Shown here: positions 4,048 through 49,859 of the stretch, one piece after another
Position numbering within the stretch: the first letter of the stretch is position 1
How the letters are laid out: each line of letters begins with the position of its first letter
Assembly (NCBI RefSeq): GCF_011044255.1
Contig: NZ_CP049107.1
Span: forward strand, 868,001-932,000
DNA from: Rhizorhabdus phycosphaerae
GTDB taxonomy: Bacteria; Pseudomonadota; Alphaproteobacteria; Sphingomonadales; Sphingomonadaceae
Reading direction: 5' to 3'
DNA: 64,000 nt
The notes under the pieces: model-generated
The model's input: only the letters and a program-made list of their open reading frames with translations
What the model was told of the DNA's origin: nothing
Databases searched by the model: none
Made by a program: the position numbers and the translations under genes

Positions 4048-5106
4048 ATGACCGCCCATATCCACGCCATCGGCACCGCCGTACCGCCGTACGCCATTCA
4101 CCAGACCTTCGTCGATTGGGCGGCAGGTCGGCTCGAGGGGCGCGATCAGGCGCTTTTCCGGCGGATGGCGGCACGATCCGCGATCGACGAGCGCTACACG
4201 GTGCTGCCCCCCTCGCCCGCTGGCGGATCGCAGGTCGACCCCGGCGGCTTCTACGGCGCTGCGATGCCCTCCACCGCCGAACGCATGGCCTGCTACGCGC
4301 ACGAAGCTCCCGCACTCGCGCTGCGGGCGATCGACGATCTCTCGACACGGGTTCCGCTCGGCGACATCACCCATCTCGTCGTGGCAAGCTGCACCGGCTT
4401 CGTCGCGCCGGGGGTCGACCAGATCATCGCGCGGCGTCTGGGCCTGTCGGGTTCGATCGAACGCACCCTTGTCGGCTTCATGGGCTGCTATGCGGCGGTC
4501 GCCGCGCTGCGCGTCGCGCATCACATCGCCCGCTCAGACGAAAGCGCCCGCATATTGGTCGTCACGGTCGAACTCTGCTCGCTCCACATGCAGGACAGCA
4601 GCGACGTCGGATCGCTGATGGCACAACTGCAATTCGCCGACGGGGCGGCCGCCGCGATCGTTTCGGCCCAACCCGCCGGCATCGCGATCGACCGTTTCTT
4701 TGCGGCGACCCTACCCGAGAGCGGCGAGCTTATCCGCTGGGACATCGGCAATGAGGGCTTCGTCATGCATCTGTCGGGCGAGGTGCCGACGCGCATCGCC
4801 GGCGCGCTCGCCGACCCGCAGCTGCGCCGCGCGATCCTCGGCGACCGGGCACCGGATGCGCCAACCGACTGGGCGGTCCATGCCGGCGGGCGATCGATCC
4901 TCGATGCGGTCCAGTCGGGCTTCGGGCTCGCCCCGGACGCGTTGACTGTCTCGCGGAACATATTGCGTCGCTGGGGCAATATGTCGTCCTCTACATTGAT
5001 GTTCGTCCTCGCCGACATGCTGGCCCAGGAAAGGCCGCTCGATGGCCTGGCCGTCGCTTTCGGGCCCGGCCTCGCCGCCGAGGGTTTTGCGTTGCGCAGC
5101 GCCTGA
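4048..5106 (+). CDS. Type III polyketide synthase
   Basis: This 352-residue enzyme is a chalcone-synthase-like homodimeric ketosynthase that would extend an acyl-CoA starter with malonyl-CoA units. The catalytic triad is visible as C115 (in VVASCTGF), H278 (in WAVHAGGRS) and N311 (in GNMSSSTL). An upstream in-frame start at 4012 exists, but the ATG at 4048 gives the usual family N-terminus MTAHIHAIGTAVPP. Its stop overlaps the start of the methyltransferase gene by one base (TGATG), so the three genes form one operon. The starter unit and product cannot be read from sequence; alkylresorcinols or alkylpyrones are typical of bacterial relatives. Confidence 0.92.
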   Translation: MTAHIHAIGTAVPPYAIHQTFVDWAAGRLEGRDQALFRRMAARSAIDERYTVLPPSPAGGSQVDPGGFYGAAMPSTAERMACYAHEAPALALRAIDDLSTRVPLGDITHLVVASCTGFVAPGVDQIIARRLGLSGSIERTLVGFMGCYAAVAALRVAHHIARSDESARILVVTVELCSLHMQDSSDVGSLMAQLQFADGAAAAIVSAQPAGIAIDRFFAATLPESGELIRWDIGNEGFVMHLSGEVPTRIAGALADPQLRRAILGDRAPDAPTDWAVHAGGRSILDAVQSGFGLAPDALTVSRNILRRWGNMSSSTLMFVLADMLAQERPLDGLAVAFGPGLAAEGFALRSA

Positions 5107-5819
5107 TGCGCTCGCTCGCCAGCCCTGCGCAGGAAAGCGAGCAGATGGATGCCGCCGATCTCGACCCGGCCACCTATGCGCGCGTTCTGACCGATCTGGC
5201 GCGGGTAAACCGCTGGACGCTGGCGGCGCGTCCCACGCTCGACTTCGTGTCCCGCGTGGTCGGCGAGCGCGATCGTTTCACCCTGCTCGACGTGGGCTAT
5301 GGCGATGGCGACCTGCTGCGCAAGATCGCGCGCTGGGCGGAAAAGCGCGGCAAGACCGCGGTGATGACCGGGATCGACCTCAACGCCAAGAGCGCCCGGA
5401 TCGCCTGGAGGGCTACACCCGATCGCTATGACATCGAGTTTCTGACCGGCGACTATCGCGAGCATCTCGACTCCGGCGAAGCGCGCGAAGGCTATGACCT
5501 TATAGTGAGCAGCCTGGTCGCCCACCATATGAGCCACGATCAGCTCGTCGAATTCCTGCGCGCAATGGAGCGCCATGCCCGGCTGGGCTGGCACATCAAC
5601 GACCTCCATCGGCACCGTTTCGCCTATCTCGGCTATCCGCTGCTCGCTCGGGCGATGGGCTGGCACAGGATCGTGCGCGAGGATGGCCAATTGTCGATCG
5701 CGCGCGCCTTTCGGCCTGCCGAATGGCGGCCGATTCTCGACGAAGCCGGGCTTCCGCCGGCAAGTGCCACCGTCCACACCCGCTTCCCGTTCCGGATATG
5801 CTTAGACCGGACGCGCTGA
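5106..5819 (+). CDS. Class I SAM-dependent methyltransferase in the polyketide operon
   Basis: This 237-residue protein carries a class I S-adenosylmethionine-binding motif LLDVGYGDGDLL at about residues 60-71 and an acidic residue at the end of the next strand (GIDLN). It probably methylates the product of the adjacent type III polyketide synthase, either on a ring hydroxyl or on carbon. Its start overlaps the synthase stop, and its last 22 bases overlap the flavoprotein gene. Assignment to the methyltransferase fold is firm; the substrate is inferred from the operon only. Confidence 0.88.
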   Translation: MRSLASPAQESEQMDAADLDPATYARVLTDLARVNRWTLAARPTLDFVSRVVGERDRFTLLDVGYGDGDLLRKIARWAEKRGKTAVMTGIDLNAKSARIAWRATPDRYDIEFLTGDYREHLDSGEAREGYDLIVSSLVAHHMSHDQLVEFLRAMERHARLGWHINDLHRHRFAYLGYPLLARAMGWHRIVREDGQLSIARAFRPAEWRPILDEAGLPPASATVHTRFPFRICLDRTR

Positions 5820-6916
5820 TCGCGGGCGGCGGACCGGCCGGAGCGGCCGTCGCGCTGCAACTCGCCCGGGCGGGTCGGCGCCCGCTGCTCGTCGACCGCC
5901 AGCGCGAGCGGGCCGATCCGGTCTGCGGCGGTTTCATGGGCGGGGACGCGATCGCGTCGCTCGCCGCACTCGGCATCGACGTTCAAGGGCTGGGGGCGCA
6001 TCCGATCACCCGCGCCCGCATCTTTGCCGGACGCCGCGTGGCCGAAGCCCCCCTGCCGTTTCAGGCTGCAGGACTGTCGCGCGCCTGTCTGGACGAGCAT
6101 CTGCTGACGCTTGCCGCCGCGGCCGGTGCCGGGATCGAACGCGGCGTGACCATCCGGCAGGCCTTTCCCGACCGACTGACGGTCGATCTGGCGGACGGCG
6201 CATCGCTTACGGGCGACGCGCTGTTCCTCGCGACGGGCAAGCATGAACTGCGCGGTGCCGCGCGGCCCGTCGCCATGGGGAACGATCCTGCGCTTGGGCT
6301 GCGGACCCGGCTCGAACCCGGCGAAGCGCTTCTCCACGGTCTGACGGGCGTGATCGAACTCCACCTGTTCCGCCACGGCTATGCCGGATTGCTGCTGCAG
6401 GAGGATGGCGGCGCCAATCTCTGCCTGTCGGTCGCGCAGTCACGCCTCAAGGCAGCAGGCGGCGACCCCGCACGTCTGATCGAGGAGATCGCCTGCGAGA
6501 CACCGGTTCTGGGCGACCGCTTCGCGGGTGCAACCTCGGTCGGCCCCTGGGTCAGCATAGCTCGCGTGCCCTATGGCTGGCGGGCGCGACAGACCACGCC
6601 CGGACTGTTCCGGCTGGGCGATCAGGCGGCAGTCATCGCCAGTCTGGCCGGAGACGGGGTGGCCATCGCGCTCGCTAGCGCCGCCCGCGCCGCCCGCGAC
6701 TATCTCCGCGAAGGACCGGCGGGCGCTGTCACTTATCAGCCCGGCTTCGCGCGGCAGACCGCCCGCCCCGTCCTGCTCGCCGAAAGCCTGCGCCGCACGG
6801 GCGAGCGGCCGATGCTGGCGGGTGCACTGCTGGCGCTTCTGGGCCAAGCCCCCGGCCTCATTACCCGCGCTGCCGCGCTTACACGGACCGATAGGGAAGA
6901 GGTCGCATCACCCTGA
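5798..6916 (+). CDS. FAD-dependent oxidoreductase / monooxygenase of the polyketide operon
   Basis: This 372-residue flavoprotein belongs to the geranylgeranyl reductase/aromatic hydroxylase superfamily. The FAD dinucleotide loop GGGPAGAA is at residues 10-17, and the second FAD motif appears near the C-terminus as RLGDQAAVIASLAGDGV. The ATG at 5798 was chosen because it places the FAD motif right at the N-terminus, as in the family; a longer in-frame start at 5723 would add 25 unrelated residues. It probably hydroxylates or otherwise oxidises the methylated polyketide. It ends 8 bp before the convergent LysR-family gene. Confidence 0.88.
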   Translation: MLRPDALIAGGGPAGAAVALQLARAGRRPLLVDRQRERADPVCGGFMGGDAIASLAALGIDVQGLGAHPITRARIFAGRRVAEAPLPFQAAGLSRACLDEHLLTLAAAAGAGIERGVTIRQAFPDRLTVDLADGASLTGDALFLATGKHELRGAARPVAMGNDPALGLRTRLEPGEALLHGLTGVIELHLFRHGYAGLLLQEDGGANLCLSVAQSRLKAAGGDPARLIEEIACETPVLGDRFAGATSVGPWVSIARVPYGWRARQTTPGLFRLGDQAAVIASLAGDGVAIALASAARAARDYLREGPAGAVTYQPGFARQTARPVLLAESLRRTGERPMLAGALLALLGQAPGLITRAAALTRTDREEVASP

Positions 6917-6923
6917 GGACGGC

Positions 6924-7709
6924 TCAGTCGCCGGTCAGCGTGGCGACGAGCGCCTTGACCTTCTTCTGGCGCCATTGCGGCGTAGGGGCGACGAGCCAGT
7001 AGGCGCGCGGCGACGGGATCGGCTCGCCATGGGCGCGGACCCGGCCTTCGATGATGTCCCGCTCGACCAGCAAGGCAGGGACGTGGGCGGTACCGAAGCC
7101 GGCGGCGGCGGCATCGATCGCCAGCCCGGCATCGGCGACAGCCAGCGTCGCGTCGCGATCCTGCGACGGGCAGCCCGGCCAGGCGATCGGCGCGCCCTGG
7201 GCCAGGCCGACGCGCACCAGCGAGCCATCGGCCAGGCGCACGCCCTCATGGTCGCCGGGGCCCTCGGCATAGACGATCGCAAGGTCGAGATTGGCCTGGG
7301 TGAAATCGAGCCCTTCGTCCGCCGACAGCAGGACGAAGCGCAGCTCGGGATCGTCGCGGCCGAAATCGGCGAGGCGCGGCGCGAGCCATTTGGCGGTGAA
7401 GTCGCGCGGCGCAGCGATGGTCAGCGTCTTCGACGACTGGCCCGCCTGCATCGCGCGCACCGCTTCCTCGAACTGAAGGAAGCCTGCCCGCAGCGCGTCA
7501 AGCCCCGCCTCGCCCTCGGGCGTCAGTTCAAGGCCCTTGGCCGTGCGCCGGAACAGCACGACGCCCAGCGTGTCCTCCAGCGCACGAATCTGCTGCCCGA
7601 CCGCCGCCGGCGTCACCGCCAGTTCGTCCGCCGCGCGGGTGAAGGACAGGTGCCGCGCCGCCGCGTCGAGAACGCGCAGACCGTTGAGGGGAAGATGCGT
7701 CCGCTTCAT
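6924..7709 (-). CDS. LysR-family transcriptional regulator (GcvA-like)
   Basis: This 261-residue protein has an N-terminal winged helix-turn-helix (residues 7-66, LRVLDAAARHLSFTRAADEL then VTPAAVGQQIRALE) and a C-terminal ligand-binding domain of periplasmic-binding-protein type. The opening MKRTHLPLNGLRVLDAAARH resembles GcvA-type regulators. It is a little shorter than the usual 300 residues. It starts 13 bp after apaG on the same strand, so it may be the last gene of a metZ-apaG-lysR unit, although LysR genes often have their own promoter. The effector is unknown. Confidence 0.9.
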   Translation of the reverse strand: MKRTHLPLNGLRVLDAAARHLSFTRAADELAVTPAAVGQQIRALEDTLGVVLFRRTAKGLELTPEGEAGLDALRAGFLQFEEAVRAMQAGQSSKTLTIAAPRDFTAKWLAPRLADFGRDDPELRFVLLSADEGLDFTQANLDLAIVYAEGPGDHEGVRLADGSLVRVGLAQGAPIAWPGCPSQDRDATLAVADAGLAIDAAAAGFGTAHVPALLVERDIIEGRVRAHGEPIPSPRAYWLVAPTPQWRQKKVKALVATLTGD

Positions 7710-7722
7710 CGTGCCGTACCCG

Positions 7723-8127
7723 TCAGAGCGCCACCGCCGGGCCGATCAGCGGGAAGCGCGGGATCGCCGCCTCGAAGGTCGATCCATCCTCGGCGACCAT
7801 ATGATAGCTGCCTTCCATCGAGCCCGTCGGCGTCTGCAGCGGACAGCCCGACACATAATCGAACGACTGGCCCGGCTCGATCACGGGCTGTTCGCCGACC
7901 ACGCCCTCGCCGCGCACGTCGTGCTTCACGCCGCGCCCGTCGGTGATAAGCCAGTGGCGCGTGAGCAGCTGTACCGCCTGCGCGCCCTCATTCTCGATGC
8001 GGATATGATAGGACCAGAACCAGCGGCCGCGCCCCGGTTCCGACTGTTCGGGCATGAAAGACACGGCCACCCGCACCACGACGCCACGGGTCTGCGCGAC
8101 ATGCGGGAAGAGCGCCTTCATGATCAT
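7723..8127 (-). CDS. apaG: ApaG protein (fibronectin III-like fold)
   Basis: This 134-residue single-domain protein matches the ApaG family, with the conserved core WFWSYHIRIENEGAQAVQLL, then RHWLITD and the C-terminal G-MEGSYHMV stretch. ApaG has been linked to cobalt/magnesium tolerance in enterobacteria, but its molecular role is not settled. The start codon at 8125-8127 overlaps the stop of metZ (ATGA); an alternative ATG two codons later (8121) is possible. In sphingomonads apaG commonly follows metZ, as here. Confidence 0.93.
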   Translation of the reverse strand: MIMKALFPHVAQTRGVVVRVAVSFMPEQSEPGRGRWFWSYHIRIENEGAQAVQLLTRHWLITDGRGVKHDVRGEGVVGEQPVIEPGQSFDYVSGCPLQTPTGSMEGSYHMVAEDGSTFEAAIPRFPLIGPAVAL

Positions 8128-45429: not shown

Positions 45430-45575
45430 TTAGACGAGGCCGGCCGGCACTCATCTCAATATTACCACCAGCGGCGAGGCAGATTGCAGACTGACGAATA
45501 TTGCTCCAATAAAAATCAATGTTGCCAAATTTTCGTTTTATATACTTGATTGACCCAATCTGATTTCCTTACCAT

Positions 45576-46514
45576 ATGGGGGGCATGGAACGCCCAGCCC
45601 CCGCAAAGCAGCACTTCAACAGCCTCATCCAGATGATGAAGGCGATTCCCGACGAGCAAGCCGCCGTCGAGCACTTCGCTGCAATCCGCTGGAAGCATGG
45701 CGCGTTCTGCCCGCATTGCGGCTCGACCAAGGTTTACAGATTTTCCGACCGTCGCACCCACAAGTGCGGCGATTGCCGTAAGCGGTTCTCAATCAAGGTC
45801 GGCACAATCTTTGAGGATAGTAAGATCGGCTTGCGCGAATGGATGCTCGCCGTTTGGCTTGTGACCAGCCACAATGAGGGCATCGCCAGCACCCAGCTCG
45901 CCAAGGATATCGGCGTCACCCAAAAAACCGCTTGGTCTATGCTGCACCGGATGCGCTATGCCGCGCAAACGAAGTCCTTCAATCGCCCGCTGGAAGGCGA
46001 GGTTGAGGCCGATGAGACGTTCATCGGCGGCAAGAAAAAGAAGAAGCATAGCAAGCGCACGGGCGGCAAGCAGGGTGGCAAGGGCAAAGCCATTATCATG
46101 GGCATCCTTGAGCGGGGCGGCGAACTTGTCACCGGCACGTTGCCCAACCTGCGCGCGAAGAACGTCCAAGGCGCGATCAACAGCGTTGTCGCGCCGGGTG
46201 CCAGCGTGATGACGGATGAGCATGTCAGTTTCGACGGGCTTTCAGGCCGCTACACGCATCATCGCGTCAACCACAGTGCGAGCGAGTATGTCCGGCATTT
46301 CTGCCTGCGTAGCAACGGTATTGAGAGTGTTTTGGCGCTGTTCAAGCGGCAGGTGATCGGGACCCACCATTGGCTCTCCCCAAAGCACTTGAGCCGCTAT
46401 CTCTGCGAGATGACGTGGCGTTTTAATCGGCGTGAGGCCGAGGAAGGCGATCGGGTCAATGCGCTGCTGGATCAGGTCTCCGGTCGCCTCACCTACAAGG
46501 AACTGATCGCATGA
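45576..46514 (+). CDS. IS1595 family transposase
   Basis: This 312-residue transposase has an N-terminal zinc ribbon (C45, C48, C64, C67 in FCPHCGSTKVYRF and HKCGDCRKRF), a helix-turn-helix (about 95-130) and a DDE-type catalytic domain. Likely catalytic residues are D146 in EVEADETFIGG, D214 in VMTDEHVSFD and E250 in NGIESVLALFK. The Lys-rich loop KKKKKHSKR after the first Asp is typical of the family. The reading frame is complete, so it may be active. The start could be the ATG at 45576 or 45585. Its stop overlaps the next start by four bases. Confidence 0.93.
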   Translation: MGGMERPAPAKQHFNSLIQMMKAIPDEQAAVEHFAAIRWKHGAFCPHCGSTKVYRFSDRRTHKCGDCRKRFSIKVGTIFEDSKIGLREWMLAVWLVTSHNEGIASTQLAKDIGVTQKTAWSMLHRMRYAAQTKSFNRPLEGEVEADETFIGGKKKKKHSKRTGGKQGGKGKAIIMGILERGGELVTGTLPNLRAKNVQGAINSVVAPGASVMTDEHVSFDGLSGRYTHHRVNHSASEYVRHFCLRSNGIESVLALFKRQVIGTHHWLSPKHLSRYLCEMTWRFNRREAEEGDRVNALLDQVSGRLTYKELIA

Positions 46515-47839
46515 CAGACAATCGCAAACTGGATGGCCCGGTGAAGTTTGATTTCGACTTTGATGAGGCCATGCAGCGTGTTGCGCAAACCAATCCCCGC
46601 GAAGTCACGGAATTAGTCGAAAACGCGGCTGAAGTGGACAGCATCGACGCATTGATCGATCGATTCGAGGCAGCCGGAGAAGACGTCGAAGGCGGGGATA
46701 AAGTCTGGTTTGCCAGAGATTTGGCGACGCTTCTTGGCTACGGGAAATGGGACAACTTTCTCGCCGTCATCACCAAGGCCAAGGCGGCTTGCGAGCAATC
46801 CGGCCATAACGCTGCCGACCATTTTGCCGACGTCGGCAAAATGGTCACGGTTGGAAGCGGGGCCGGGCGTGAGATCGCCGATATCCGCTTGGATCGCTAT
46901 GCGTGCTATCTCGTCGCGCAAAACGGTGATGGCCGGAAACGCCCTGTCGCATTCGCCCAGACCTATTTCGCCATCCAAACCCGCCGCCAGGAACTCACCG
47001 ACCGAGACGGTATAGATTTCGGCAAGCTGTCAGAAAACCACCAGCGGCTATATCTGCGTGAGCAGGTCGTATCAGAGATCAAGAAACTCAACGGGGCGGC
47101 GAAAGCCGCTGGTGTCGAAACCGGGAAGGATTTCGCGAAATTCCACAACAAGGGCTATCAGGGGTTATATGGTGGCCGTGGGGTCGATGAGATAAAGCGA
47201 TATAAGAACCTTCCAGCGAAGGCGAACGTCCTTGATCACATGGGGAGCACCGAACTTGCTGCGAACCTCTTTCGCATCACGCAAACCGAGGAAAAACTTC
47301 GCAGGGAAGACATCCGAGGCAAGGAAGCTGCATGCACTGCTCACTATGAGGTCGGCGTAAAGGTCCGCCAGACCATTGAGCAGCTTAGCGGCATCATGCC
47401 TGAAAACCTGCCCGTGGCAGAGAATGTGAAGAAGATTGCAGCACAGGAACGCAAGCAGCAGCGAATGCGAGCGATCCCTGCACAGACACGTATCGAGCAG
47501 CCACTGGCTGCCCCCAAGGCCGCTGATCCGGTTGAAATCGACCTCAGCAAAGACCTCTGGAAATATGCGCTACTCATCATGTCGGTCAGGCCGAATGGGG
47601 AAATCACCACCAGCGATTTGATTGATGCGATGCCGGGTTATGTAAAGCTGTCAGACGACCATATGGCGACGAATGAAAGCCGAAAGGACTCCAAATTTTC
47701 GCAGATTGTCCGCAACCTCAAGTCACACAAGGCGAGCAAGTCGAACTTCATCTACCAAGGGTATGCCGAGGACGTGCGGGGAGGATTCAAGATTACCGAC
47801 AAGGGCATGGAGTTCGTATGGAGCTACTTCAAAGAGTAG
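46511..47839 (+). CDS. DinD-like (DNA-damage-inducible D) protein with C-terminal winged helix
   Basis: This 442-residue protein has three parts. Residues 12-34 form a short segment (FDFDEAMQRVAQTNPREV). Residues 60-312 match DinD: a BRO-N-like module (WFARDLATLLGYGKWDNFL, YACYLVAQNGD) and the diagnostic run TELAANLFRITQTEEKLRR followed by VRQTIEQLSGIMPENLP. Residues about 345-442 form a winged-helix-like domain (FSQIVRNLKSHKASKSNFIY, then GFKITDKGMEF) similar to the N-terminal part of Mrr-type restriction proteins. DinD of Escherichia coli is SOS-induced and inhibits RecA strand exchange; the added domain is not part of it. The gene is coupled to the transposase. No LexA box was seen at its start. 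Confidence 0.78.
   Translation: MTDNRKLDGPVKFDFDFDEAMQRVAQTNPREVTELVENAAEVDSIDALIDRFEAAGEDVEGGDKVWFARDLATLLGYGKWDNFLAVITKAKAACEQSGHNAADHFADVGKMVTVGSGAGREIADIRLDRYACYLVAQNGDGRKRPVAFAQTYFAIQTRRQELTDRDGIDFGKLSENHQRLYLREQVVSEIKKLNGAAKAAGVETGKDFAKFHNKGYQGLYGGRGVDEIKRYKNLPAKANVLDHMGSTELAANLFRITQTEEKLRREDIRGKEAACTAHYEVGVKVRQTIEQLSGIMPENLPVAENVKKIAAQERKQQRMRAIPAQTRIEQPLAAPKAADPVEIDLSKDLWKYALLIMSVRPNGEITTSDLIDAMPGYVKLSDDHMATNESRKDSKFSQIVRNLKSHKASKSNFIYQGYAEDVRGGFKITDKGMEFVWSYFKE
46817..46846. repeat. Perfect 30-bp palindrome inside the DinD-like gene
   Basis: Arms 46817-46831 (GACCATTTTGCCGAC) and 46832-46846 are exact complements with no spacer. The palindrome begins on a codon boundary and spans ten codons (residues 103-112), so both strands encode the same ten residues, DHFADVGKMV. 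Such a length is very unlikely by chance. Confidence 0.85.
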
Positions 47840-47863
47840 ATCAAATTCCGCCTTGGGTCACGA

Positions 47864-49705
47864 ATGTATATAGCTCCCAAAAATTTGGCATTGCTCGGTG
47901 ATCCGCTTGAACGAGGTCTAAGGTATATGGATAACTTGGATCACTTCGTAGGCATTGAATTCCATCGCTTCAAAGCCTTTCGTAGTTTCAGCATTGCGAT
48001 CCGAAAGCTCAATATACTCGTTGGGCCAAACAACGCCGGAAAGTCGACCGTTCTAGCTTCTTTTAGAATTCTGGCTGCTGCCCTACGTCGCGCAAACTTG
48101 CGCAAGCCTGAAATCGTGCAAGGTCCATCAGGCGGAGTGCTCGGACACAAGATCAACCTAGCCGCTTTGTCGGTAGCCGAAGAAAATATCTTCTTCGACT
48201 ACGAGCGTGACGAACCTGCTTGGGTACGGTTCAAGCTTTCAAACGGCAACACATTAACATTGTATTTTCCTGAGCCACAGGTCTGTTATCTTATCCCAGA
48301 TGCTCAGGGTCGCAGCTACGGGTCACCTGCCAGCTTCAAAAAGCTGTTTCGATGCCCCATCGGCTTTGTGCCGATCCTCGCGCCGGTTGACCACCGAGAG
48401 TTTCTTTACGAGCCGGAGGCCGCCAAACGGGCGCTCTCTAATTACGGGGCAGCTCGAAATTTCCGAAATATCTGGCACCACTTCCCTGACGCGTTTGGTG
48501 AATTCCGAGAGCTATTGAAGCGGACTTGGCCTGGCATGGACGTCACCCCACCCGAGTTGGATTACTCCCATGAGCGCACGGTTCTACATATGTGGTGCCC
48601 GGAGGGACGGATACCTAGAGAGATTTTCTGGGCAGGCTTTGGCTTTCAGGTCTGGTGCCAGATGCTGACATACTTGCTCCATGCAAAGAATGTGTCCCTA
48701 TTCCTGATCGACGAGCCAGACATCTACCTCCACGCAGACCTGCAGCGGCAGTTGCTTGGCATTCTTCGCAAGCTTGGTCCTGATATTCTCGTGGCAACGC
48801 ACTCCACAGAGATTCTTACCGAAGCCGATGCAGATGAGGTTGTTCTCGTCGATAAGGGAAGAACGCGCGCAAAACGCTTAAAAAATACTATGCAGCTTGA
48901 ATCTGTCTTCCGCAGCTTGGGTTCAGCGATCAATCCAATTCTGACGCAGCTAGCTAAAACCCGAAAGGTCGTCTTTGTGGAGGGCACTGATTTTCATCTG
49001 CTAGGCCGCTTCGCACGCCGGATGGAACGGCAGCGACTAGCCAATCGATCGGACTTCGCTGTCGTTCCCCTAGAGGGATTCAATCCAGACCGCATCCGCA
49101 CATTACGCCGTGGTATCGAGGCAACACTTGGCGTTGACGTATCAGCGGCTGCCATTCTCGATCGCGACTACCGGCCAGCGGAAGAACGCGCTTCAGTCAT
49201 CGACCTCTGTGGGAATTTCTGCAAGTTCGCGACGGTCCACGAATGCAAAGAGCTTGAGAATTTTGTACTCGTCCCTGAGGCGATCGACCGGGCTGTTCGC
49301 GCAAAGCTCGCAGACCGCAAACGCCGAGGACTCCAAGTTACCGACTATAGGAATGAAGCAGCTGAATTACTCGATGCATTCGCCAAGGAGAAATTCGAGT
49401 ACGTGGTTGACCAACATTTGCGCTCGCGAAAGAGTTATGAGCGGAACAGCGGTCGGAAAGTCGACGAGAGCGAGCTAGCGAAATCTGTCAGAGCGGAGCT
49501 TGTCGAACTTTGGAGGGATCCGGCTACACGGCTCCGCCTGATACCTGGCAAAGATGCACTGACATATGTGAATAACTGTATTCAAGATCGCTACGGTGTA
49601 AACGTAACAGCTAGCGCAGTAATAGAAGCCATGCATATTGCGGAAATACCAGAAGAGATGGTGATACTGATCAATAATCTTGAGAAATTTGCGCTCGACG
49701 TGTGA
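47864..49705 (+). CDS. OLD-family ATPase/TOPRIM nuclease
   Basis: This 613-residue protein has an ABC-type ATPase with Walker A GPNNAGKST at 54-62, an AGFGFQVW signature-like run near 257, Walker B SLFLIDEPDIYLH around 278-290 and the switch His313 in VATHSTEIL. A TOPRIM nuclease domain follows, with E373 in VVFVEGTDF, D433 and D435 in ILDRDYRP, and E465 in KELENF. This is the OLD (overcoming lysogenisation defect) architecture; family members act in phage defence (P2 Old, GajA of Gabija). No UvrD-like partner follows, so it is a stand-alone class. Codon use differs from host genes. A start at 47927, after AAGG, is also plausible. Confidence 0.85.
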   Translation: MYIAPKNLALLGDPLERGLRYMDNLDHFVGIEFHRFKAFRSFSIAIRKLNILVGPNNAGKSTVLASFRILAAALRRANLRKPEIVQGPSGGVLGHKINLAALSVAEENIFFDYERDEPAWVRFKLSNGNTLTLYFPEPQVCYLIPDAQGRSYGSPASFKKLFRCPIGFVPILAPVDHREFLYEPEAAKRALSNYGAARNFRNIWHHFPDAFGEFRELLKRTWPGMDVTPPELDYSHERTVLHMWCPEGRIPREIFWAGFGFQVWCQMLTYLLHAKNVSLFLIDEPDIYLHADLQRQLLGILRKLGPDILVATHSTEILTEADADEVVLVDKGRTRAKRLKNTMQLESVFRSLGSAINPILTQLAKTRKVVFVEGTDFHLLGRFARRMERQRLANRSDFAVVPLEGFNPDRIRTLRRGIEATLGVDVSAAAILDRDYRPAEERASVIDLCGNFCKFATVHECKELENFVLVPEAIDRAVRAKLADRKRRGLQVTDYRNEAAELLDAFAKEKFEYVVDQHLRSRKSYERNSGRKVDESELAKSVRAELVELWRDPATRLRLIPGKDALTYVNNCIQDRYGVNVTASAVIEAMHIAEIPEEMVILINNLEKFALDV

Positions 49706-49735
49706 TAGGGGTGTACAGCGCAATAGCCCACGCTT

Positions 49736-49752
49736 GCCCCATACAAAGGGGC
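49736..49752 (+). terminator. Small hairpin after the OLD gene
   Basis: A 5-bp GCCCC/GGGGC stem with a 7-nt loop lies 30 bp after the stop, without a T tract. Weak candidate. Confidence 0.25.
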
Positions 49753-49859
49753 GGTTGAGCGATTTGGTCAGCCGTATTGAGTGATTACCGGGACTTCTGG
49801 GTGTTCATGCAAGAATAAAACCAAACCAAACTCCCGCTCGGCGAATCGTTAGTCATCCC

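Follow-up and report, generated by a model that had tools for sequence, protein, structure and literature searches.

Do the genes that travel with a small transposon work with its transposase, or are they freight, as such passengers are usually regarded? And how much of a run of compositionally distinct genes belongs to such an element? Both questions are raised by a locus of Rhizorhabdus phycosphaerae (contig NZ_CP049107.1, positions 868,001 to 932,000; this 64,000-nucleotide stretch is the window, and its own coordinates are used throughout), in which an IS1595-family transposase is followed by a DinD-like gene and by a gene for an OLD-type ATPase. An initial annotation had read all three as one element reaching to position 49859, with DinD and OLD as the two cargo genes of a mobile defence unit. 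The genes do lie where it placed them, and the contrast in composition that it noted holds, the guanine-plus-cytosine (GC) content being 0.49-0.59 in 500-base windows between 45.5 and 50 kb, whereas windows on either side, across 40-56 kb, range over 0.62-0.76. The element is smaller than proposed: it ends at 47878, ahead of OLD, and is an IS1595-type transposon carrying the DinD-like gene in a two-gene operon, whose second open reading frame (ORF2) begins with a conserved stretch of about 45 residues, here called the tag. Since this anatomy is well supported, we regard as probable, on balance, the combined statement that the locus holds a two-gene IS1595 transposon with a tagged partner beside OLD, the tag docking ORF2 to the transposase.

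Ends and gene content of the element

An inverted-repeat search of the window alone gave no clear repeats. Alignment of upstream DNA from 18 relatives and the window revealed a shared block starting near GGGACCTATATAC, the reverse complement of which lies downstream in most of the 18. Repeats and target-site duplications were called by a motif-guided search; an earlier, unguided automatic search had returned chance pairs, in the window included. Across the 64 kb, the two best matches to the relatives' consensus on either strand form an inverted pair that brackets the transposase and ORF2: a decayed left terminal inverted repeat on the plus strand (45533..45557; 17/25 positions, with TCG in place of the terminal GGG) and a right repeat on the minus strand (47854..47878; 22/25) that marks the element end. 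In 30 single-strand shuffles the maximum score was 18, and matches of at least 17 arose at 0.17 per strand. The right end is thus evident from its score, whereas the case for the left end depends on its position, 43 bases ahead of the transposase start, a spacing shared with several DinD-type relatives. IS1595-family terminal inverted repeats start with GG; the right end here reads GGGAGC, and many relatives have GGG or GGT. Repeats starting with GG are stated for Merlin, and IS1595 family members are described as usually having a single transposase gene (PMC8101967).

Flanking the repeats are the candidate target-site duplications ccaaattt (45525..45532) and aaaaattt (47879..47886), which agree at 6/8 positions, a match that is weak alone, as 6/8 is reached in 4.6% of cases when left and right flanks of other elements are mispaired. 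The relatives are clearer. Among 88 unique transposase loci (window included; loci carry L numbers below, genomes G numbers), 42 have repeats of at least 12/20 together with a duplication of at least 7/8, and 40 have an exact 8/8 duplication. This confident set was picked partly on the duplication, and the control was therefore a swap of flanks among its 42 elements, in which none of 1722 mismatched pairs gave an exact 8/8. The other 46 loci include some cut off at contig ends, shortened or decayed copies, and copies with ends that the motif did not fit.

The element thus bounded (45533-47878; 2,346 bp) contains two genes, the transposase and the DinD-like ORF2. The transposase (45576..46514, plus strand; 312 residues) comprises a zinc ribbon and a DDE domain and is of the IS1595 type, as first annotated (NF033547 IS1595 5.3e-54; DDE_Tnp_IS1595 1.2e-39; Zn_ribbon_IS1595 1.3e-13). 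Residues D146, D214 and E250, invariant in transposase alignment A1, are presumably its catalytic triad. Of the claim of one element with two cargo genes, the DinD-like half stands: it lies between the inverted repeats, overlaps the transposase through an ATGA, and recurs with its tag behind the transposase in relatives. The OLD half is not supported, its gene being sited beyond the right repeat.

The DinD-like partner

ORF2 (46511..47839, plus strand; 442 residues) has a start that overlaps the transposase stop, and consists of the tag, a DinD domain and a C-terminal region. The DinD domain spans residues 46-318 (46646..47464, plus strand; NF008573 4e-108, Bro-N at 61-143 with 1.7e-7), its 361 bits standing above the curated cut-off of 242, and ORF2 extends past the DinD model by about 45 residues at its N-terminus and about 120 at its C-terminus. 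The extra C-terminal domain that had been annotated (residues 345-442; 47543..47836, plus strand) is supported as winged-helix-like: an AlphaFold model (12-sequence alignment; mean predicted local distance difference test score 74) predicts the order helix-strand-helix-helix-helix-strand-strand-helix over residues 345-439, and Mrr_N matches weakly (0.014, below the Pfam cut-off). The N-terminal stretch is modelled at low confidence, with a short helix at 17-25. A sequence search of the PDB returned no credible relative of the DinD-like protein (best E 0.81) or of the transposase (best E 0.52); Foldseek against the PDB gave DdrC as the best match and the sole one below 0.001 (E 9.5e-4, probability 1.00). 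In PADLOC, the protein matches PDC-S13 (2.1e-109, residues 45-318), a defence candidate, and a role of DinD in DNA damage or defence is possible from this resemblance.

Among 298 genomes of the same family, DinD matches occur in 12, five full-length and seven partial; all five full-length genes stand directly behind this transposase, two of whose copies there are truncated. A perfect 30-bp palindrome without spacer also lies inside the dinD coding sequence (46817-46846), where DHFADVGKMV is encoded on both strands; the proteins of aligned relatives have other residues in this segment, L102 being close (DHFAGVGKMI).

A conserved tag linked to the transposase

The tag occupies roughly residues 1-45 of ORF2 (46511..46645, plus strand; core FDFDEAMQRVAQTNPREV) and is matched by a tag hidden Markov model (HMM) at 9.4e-22, the window being among its 12 seeds, and by an A2 profile at 3.4e-9. 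In the clade near the window its consensus is MTxxKREPPLxLDMxFxEALERFxxTDPxEL. The downstream frame begins at -4 relative to the transposase stop in 43 of the 88 loci and at -8 in 16, when the start nearest -4 is taken. The tag either stands alone, as a protein of about 60 residues with a short tail that is often rich in lysine and proline, or precedes larger proteins: DinD, Bro-N, P63C, RhuM, KilA-N, a 185-residue protein without Pfam match, and an uncharacterised protein of about 350 residues. Of the 51 loci whose transposases are at least 50% identical, 46 have the tag at HMM E<=1e-7, and a six-frame search added L097 and L100; in this set it is missing in L104, in the shortened L126 and in L130, at a contig end. 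For 14 stand-alone tags, NCBIfam holds no model, and Pfam gave two weak matches to GIP1_N (best 0.0051).

A profile of stand-alone tags yields 18 matches in 18 of the 298 same-family genomes, of which 15 are directly behind this transposase (truncated in G132 and G193) and three behind C-terminal transposase remnants. In viral contigs, a DinD profile finds 14 loci; three carry the tag, and each of them follows remnants of the transposase. These are L220 (one and the same contig as L065), L221 and L222, the last having a KilA-N body by Pfam and a C-terminus that is DinD-like. The other 11 have neither tag nor transposase in the DNA examined, which in L231 includes almost nothing upstream (3/3 versus 0/11, Fisher p 0.003). 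The tag is also constrained as protein: the median pN/pS (nonsynonymous over synonymous polymorphism) is 0.28 for the tag and 0.27 for DinD in 45 pairwise comparisons among 10 sequences, whose synonymous sites are near saturation. Across all pairs, tag divergence tracks transposase divergence (Mantel r 0.35, 0/2000 permutations).

A similar motif at the opposite end in other phyla

In the 37 loci with transposase identity below 50%, mostly from Bacteroidota and Streptococcus, a motif of consensus LSDFNKKLKKGLxxNPK occurs, usually at the end of a downstream ORF. A model of this C-motif, built from 14 seed loci, matches 24 of the 37 at an independent E-value of at most 1e-3; ten of these are non-seeds, including five streptococci like seed L143. 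The motif is N-terminal in L131 and internal in L158, L156 has one extra match 1.9 kb upstream of the transposase stop, and a looser form can be seen by eye in some of the other 13 (L136, L157, L161 and L163; at the front in L146, L147 and L083). In many of these distant elements the motif lies 0.8-1.7 kb from the transposase stop, and in L133 and L134 the tag-bearing ORF is further downstream, behind another gene. Within 15 whole genomes, chosen because such elements were present in them, the model gives 16 matches in 13 genomes, of which 15 follow a same-strand IS1595 transposase at a distance of up to 1.8 kb and one lies 0.9 kb upstream of such a transposase.

The same protein families recur at both ends of the arrangement. 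By Pfam, the C-terminal motif is carried by P63C (L137, L142, L149), RhuM (L148, L155), Bro-N (L140) and KilA-N (L135 and L141, the latter in a Cycloclasticus bin), and the front tag by P63C (L124), RhuM (L098), Bro-N (L073, L119, L121) and KilA-N (L222). Families were taken from Pfam because, in short ORFs, the tag itself distorts the automatic ORF2 classes; the automatic labels L101type (stand-alone tags), R185 (L111), RhuM (L151) and KilA-N (L158) were dropped.

OLD as a neighbour of the element

The OLD-type ATPase gene lies outside the element (47927..49705, plus strand; AAA_21 7.9e-20). Its ORF is listed at 47864-49705; the listed start falls inside the right inverted repeat, and ATG 47927, near which homologues begin, is therefore the likelier start, giving a protein of 592 residues. 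The transposon ends 48 bp upstream of that start, and OLD is for this reason a neighbour of the element and not its cargo. It was probably present before the element inserted, and may be co-expressed with the element's genes. The ATPase part is clear, and for the TOPRIM part Pfam OLD-like_TOPRIM reaches only 0.089, with FVEG and LDRDY motifs conserved in close homologues; PADLOC gives NsnB at 7e-21, AriA at 7.8e-19, Old at 1.6e-18 (residues 274-439) and GajA at 1.2e-16. The gene was annotated as lacking a UvrD partner, and indeed no UvrD-type ORF adjoins it; by eye, no helicase-like ORF was recognised among those listed between 43 and 52.5 kb, which were not scanned against helicase models. 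The ORF after OLD is on the opposite strand and ends in GNAT-like sequence, GNAT being recognised by eye and in the initial annotation.

The transposase-DinD-OLD order was looked for elsewhere and not found: tblastn of OLD at E<=1e-8 gives no match beside any of the 87 other transposase loci, in flanks that commonly span about 5 kb on each side (16 of the 87 have less than 3 kb downstream), and four OLD homologues at 26-52% identity have neither transposase nor DinD in the stretches examined around them. In the 298 same-family genomes, nearly full-length OLD homologues occur at 52% and 26% identity, other matches being partial. Relaxing the threshold to E<=1e-3 brings up two partial matches among the transposase loci. 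One, in L090 (28% over 100 residues), is upstream of the transposase on the opposite strand; the other, on an Entomospira plasmid (L035), belongs to a gene annotated as an AAA ATPase, which starts 0.3 kb downstream from a transposase of 39% identity, with PADLOC matches to AriA (3.7e-21) and Old (7.1e-14). OLD/AriA-like genes can thus sit behind IS1595 transposases, as L035 illustrates, and may be passengers in the family, which does not speak for the DinD-OLD pair; this OLD with this transposase was not found elsewhere among the loci examined. In L035, the region 5001-7991 holds the transposase, a 68-residue ORF at its stop and then the ATPase, with a Bro-N gene 1.1 kb upstream of the transposase; its element repeats could not be defined by the motif-guided search. 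Solo OLD homologues of roughly 41-43% identity are also present on 2.5-2.8 Mb replicons of Cupriavidus (L032, L033), at sites with no feature in the PLSDB gene table.

Docking, cargo or regulation

How might a tagged partner work? Overlapping translation would yield the transposase and ORF2 together, with the tag as the docking point between the two proteins. During transposition, or when host DNA is damaged, the DinD part would act on RecA filaments or DNA ends. Docking is, in our estimation, the likeliest role of the tag, at a little short of an even chance. It is a more tentative proposal still that this IS1595 clade is a modular platform, in which a portable peptide of about 15-40 residues, encoded beside the transposase and placed at either end, tethers interchangeable proteins (DinD, Bro-N, KilA-N, P63C, RhuM and uncharacterised ones) to the transposase. 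Were this true, the platform would link transposition to defence, to regulation of the phage type or to the sensing of DNA damage in at least three phyla.

A number of observations weigh against docking or against parts of the anatomy on which it builds. The window's own duplication agrees at only 6/8 and its left repeat is decayed; an empty site between rlmJ and GNAT was sought in genus-mates and none was obtained, rlmJ being matched in 8/14 genus genomes including the window's own, six of the seven others being usable, and no GNAT match at E<=1e-3 appearing within some 1.5 kb after rlmJ in those six (in L202 the sequence ends there). L104 has repeats and an exact duplication yet no tag. The tag marks a clade and not the IS1595 family, for transposase matches occur in 119 of the 298 genomes and the N-terminal tag in 18; likewise, in the 15 genomes searched for the C-motif, it lies downstream of 15 out of 27 transposase matches, some of which are partial. 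Co-evolution of tag and transposase is not borne out among different bodies: pairs that differ in body give r 0.10, reached in 196/2000 permutations. The N- and C-terminal tag profiles align in register without significance (probability 1.5%, P 0.034), and the two tags may therefore be convergent. Finally, ORF2 remains open, at 423-442 codons, behind transposases that are shortened (L065, L079, L123, L129, a Zymomonas plasmid copy, and viral L221 and L222), and may be useful without a working transposase; in L102, ORF2 is itself cut, to 257 residues.

These intact frames fit a benefit to host or phage, and support the alternative that ORF2 is beneficial cargo, acting in defence or the DNA-damage response, its tag being the relic of the element's original small accessory ORF, kept for translation or solubility and not for docking. 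The PADLOC listing of DinD and the presence of an N6/N4 methyltransferase, PemK, SocA_Panacea and Peptidase_M78 in some related elements point the same way. One would expect a relic to be less constrained than the domain that follows it, and would not expect a like motif to recur in other phyla at the far end of related bodies; we judge this account unlikely. Alternatively, ORF2 could be a regulator of the element, a DNA-binding protein of antirepressor type that makes expression or activity of the transposase depend on prophage or SOS state. The DinD, Bro-N, KilA-N, P63C and RhuM families have an antirepressor-type character, many long ORF2 bodies come from such phage-known families, and the prevalent starts at -4 and -8 are in keeping with that role; but many ORF2s are tags of some 60 residues with no such domain, and others are joined to the 185-residue protein, which leaves regulation a distinctly unlikely explanation.

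The defence unit of the initial annotation, with DinD and OLD as cargo of one element, would account for two genes on the same strand, 87 bp apart, in shared low-GC DNA, and draws some encouragement from the Entomospira plasmid. Against it count the right terminal repeat that separates the two genes, the lack of OLD at E<=1e-8 beside the 87 other transposase loci and the absence of both partners from the examined flanks of the four OLD homologues; it is highly improbable. Least credible of all, to the point of being barely tenable, is that the tag serves coupled translation as a nucleotide-level signal and has no role as protein: the ATGA overlap with the transposase stop would suit it, but amino-acid constraint with synonymous sites near saturation does not, and neither does a motif that in many distant elements lies 0.8-1.7 kb from that stop. 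The two-gene transposon with a tagged partner, proposed to dock to the transposase, remains the explanation that we prefer.

Passengers of related elements

Related elements contain further passengers supported by Pfam, namely N6_N4_Mtase, SocA_Panacea, PemK and Peptidase_M78, and also a ClpP-like protease; the class can therefore carry defence- and addiction-type genes, and the term mobile defence is possible for the class as a whole. In L087 and L127, a tagged 185-residue protein (without Pfam match in L087) and an opposite-strand N6/N4 DNA methyltransferase (by Pfam in L127) lie between the repeats, a pairing that is possibly restriction-modification-like. A passenger of about 300 residues with a YPSMSLxxAI-like stretch, seen by eye, recurs in L090, L095, L111, L116, L117 and L147, and in L147 has no Pfam match. 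Downstream of the transposase of L133 is a 265-residue passenger that resembles, by eye, a proteasome-type N-terminal nucleophile hydrolase (no Pfam match), followed by a short tagged ORF of 66 residues from its ATG. The 4.6-kb tagged element of L106 has, by eye, a second IS1595-like transposase inside. On the Zymomonas plasmid pZM36 (L164; 36 kb, its sequence also in a phage collection), a tag-DinD gene has only a C-terminal transposase remnant upstream and an apparent right repeat, judged by eye, downstream.

Relation to known systems

A conserved tag on unrelated passengers, apparently at either end, would suggest that passengers of this class work with the transposase. The tag also provides a sequence handle for finding such passengers, and makes testable whether the targets of transposon-borne DinD, P63C, RhuM, Bro-N and KilA-N proteins are the transposase, RecA or DNA ends, or phages. 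The locus carries a warning as well: finding OLD next to a transposon and a DinD gene is no evidence of a joint defence unit. With class 1 OLD nucleases and with Gabija GajA, this OLD shares Walker A, DEPDxYLH, FVEG and LDxDY motifs across four homologues; it differs in having no recognised adjacent helicase ORF, in matching their profiles distantly, NsnB being the best, and in standing outside the element.

The partner protein has the full DinD domain of Escherichia coli DinD, a RecA filament modulator (Uranga et al. 2011, as cited in PMC4849656 and PMC4457935), which is cited as helping to remove RecA filaments (PMC4849656) and as regulating RecA (PMC4457935). ORF2 departs from that protein in its N-terminal tag of about 45 residues, its winged-helix-like C-terminal domain and its location in a transposon. 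The modelled likeness to DdrC of Deinococcus radiodurans, which is described as binding DNA, protecting it and circularising it (PMC5436757), has a template modelling (TM) score of 0.47 on the target at E 9.5e-4, set against 17% identity, a root-mean-square deviation of 17.8 over the whole alignment and a TM score of 0.24 on the query. Literature searches on DinD, KilA-N, Bro-N, P63C and antirepressors beside IS1595 or a transposase, with subscription papers mostly uncovered and the tag itself having no name to search by, turned up no description of tagged partners. IS1595 subgroups with passenger genes (ISNwi1/ISNha5) are known, reportedly from Siguier et al. (2009), whose account may include some of these passengers. 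The present element resembles them in its DDE domain, zinc ribbon, inverted repeats, 8-bp duplications (here seen in relatives) and passengers, and stands apart from them in that the second ORF bears a conserved tag joined to varied proteins.

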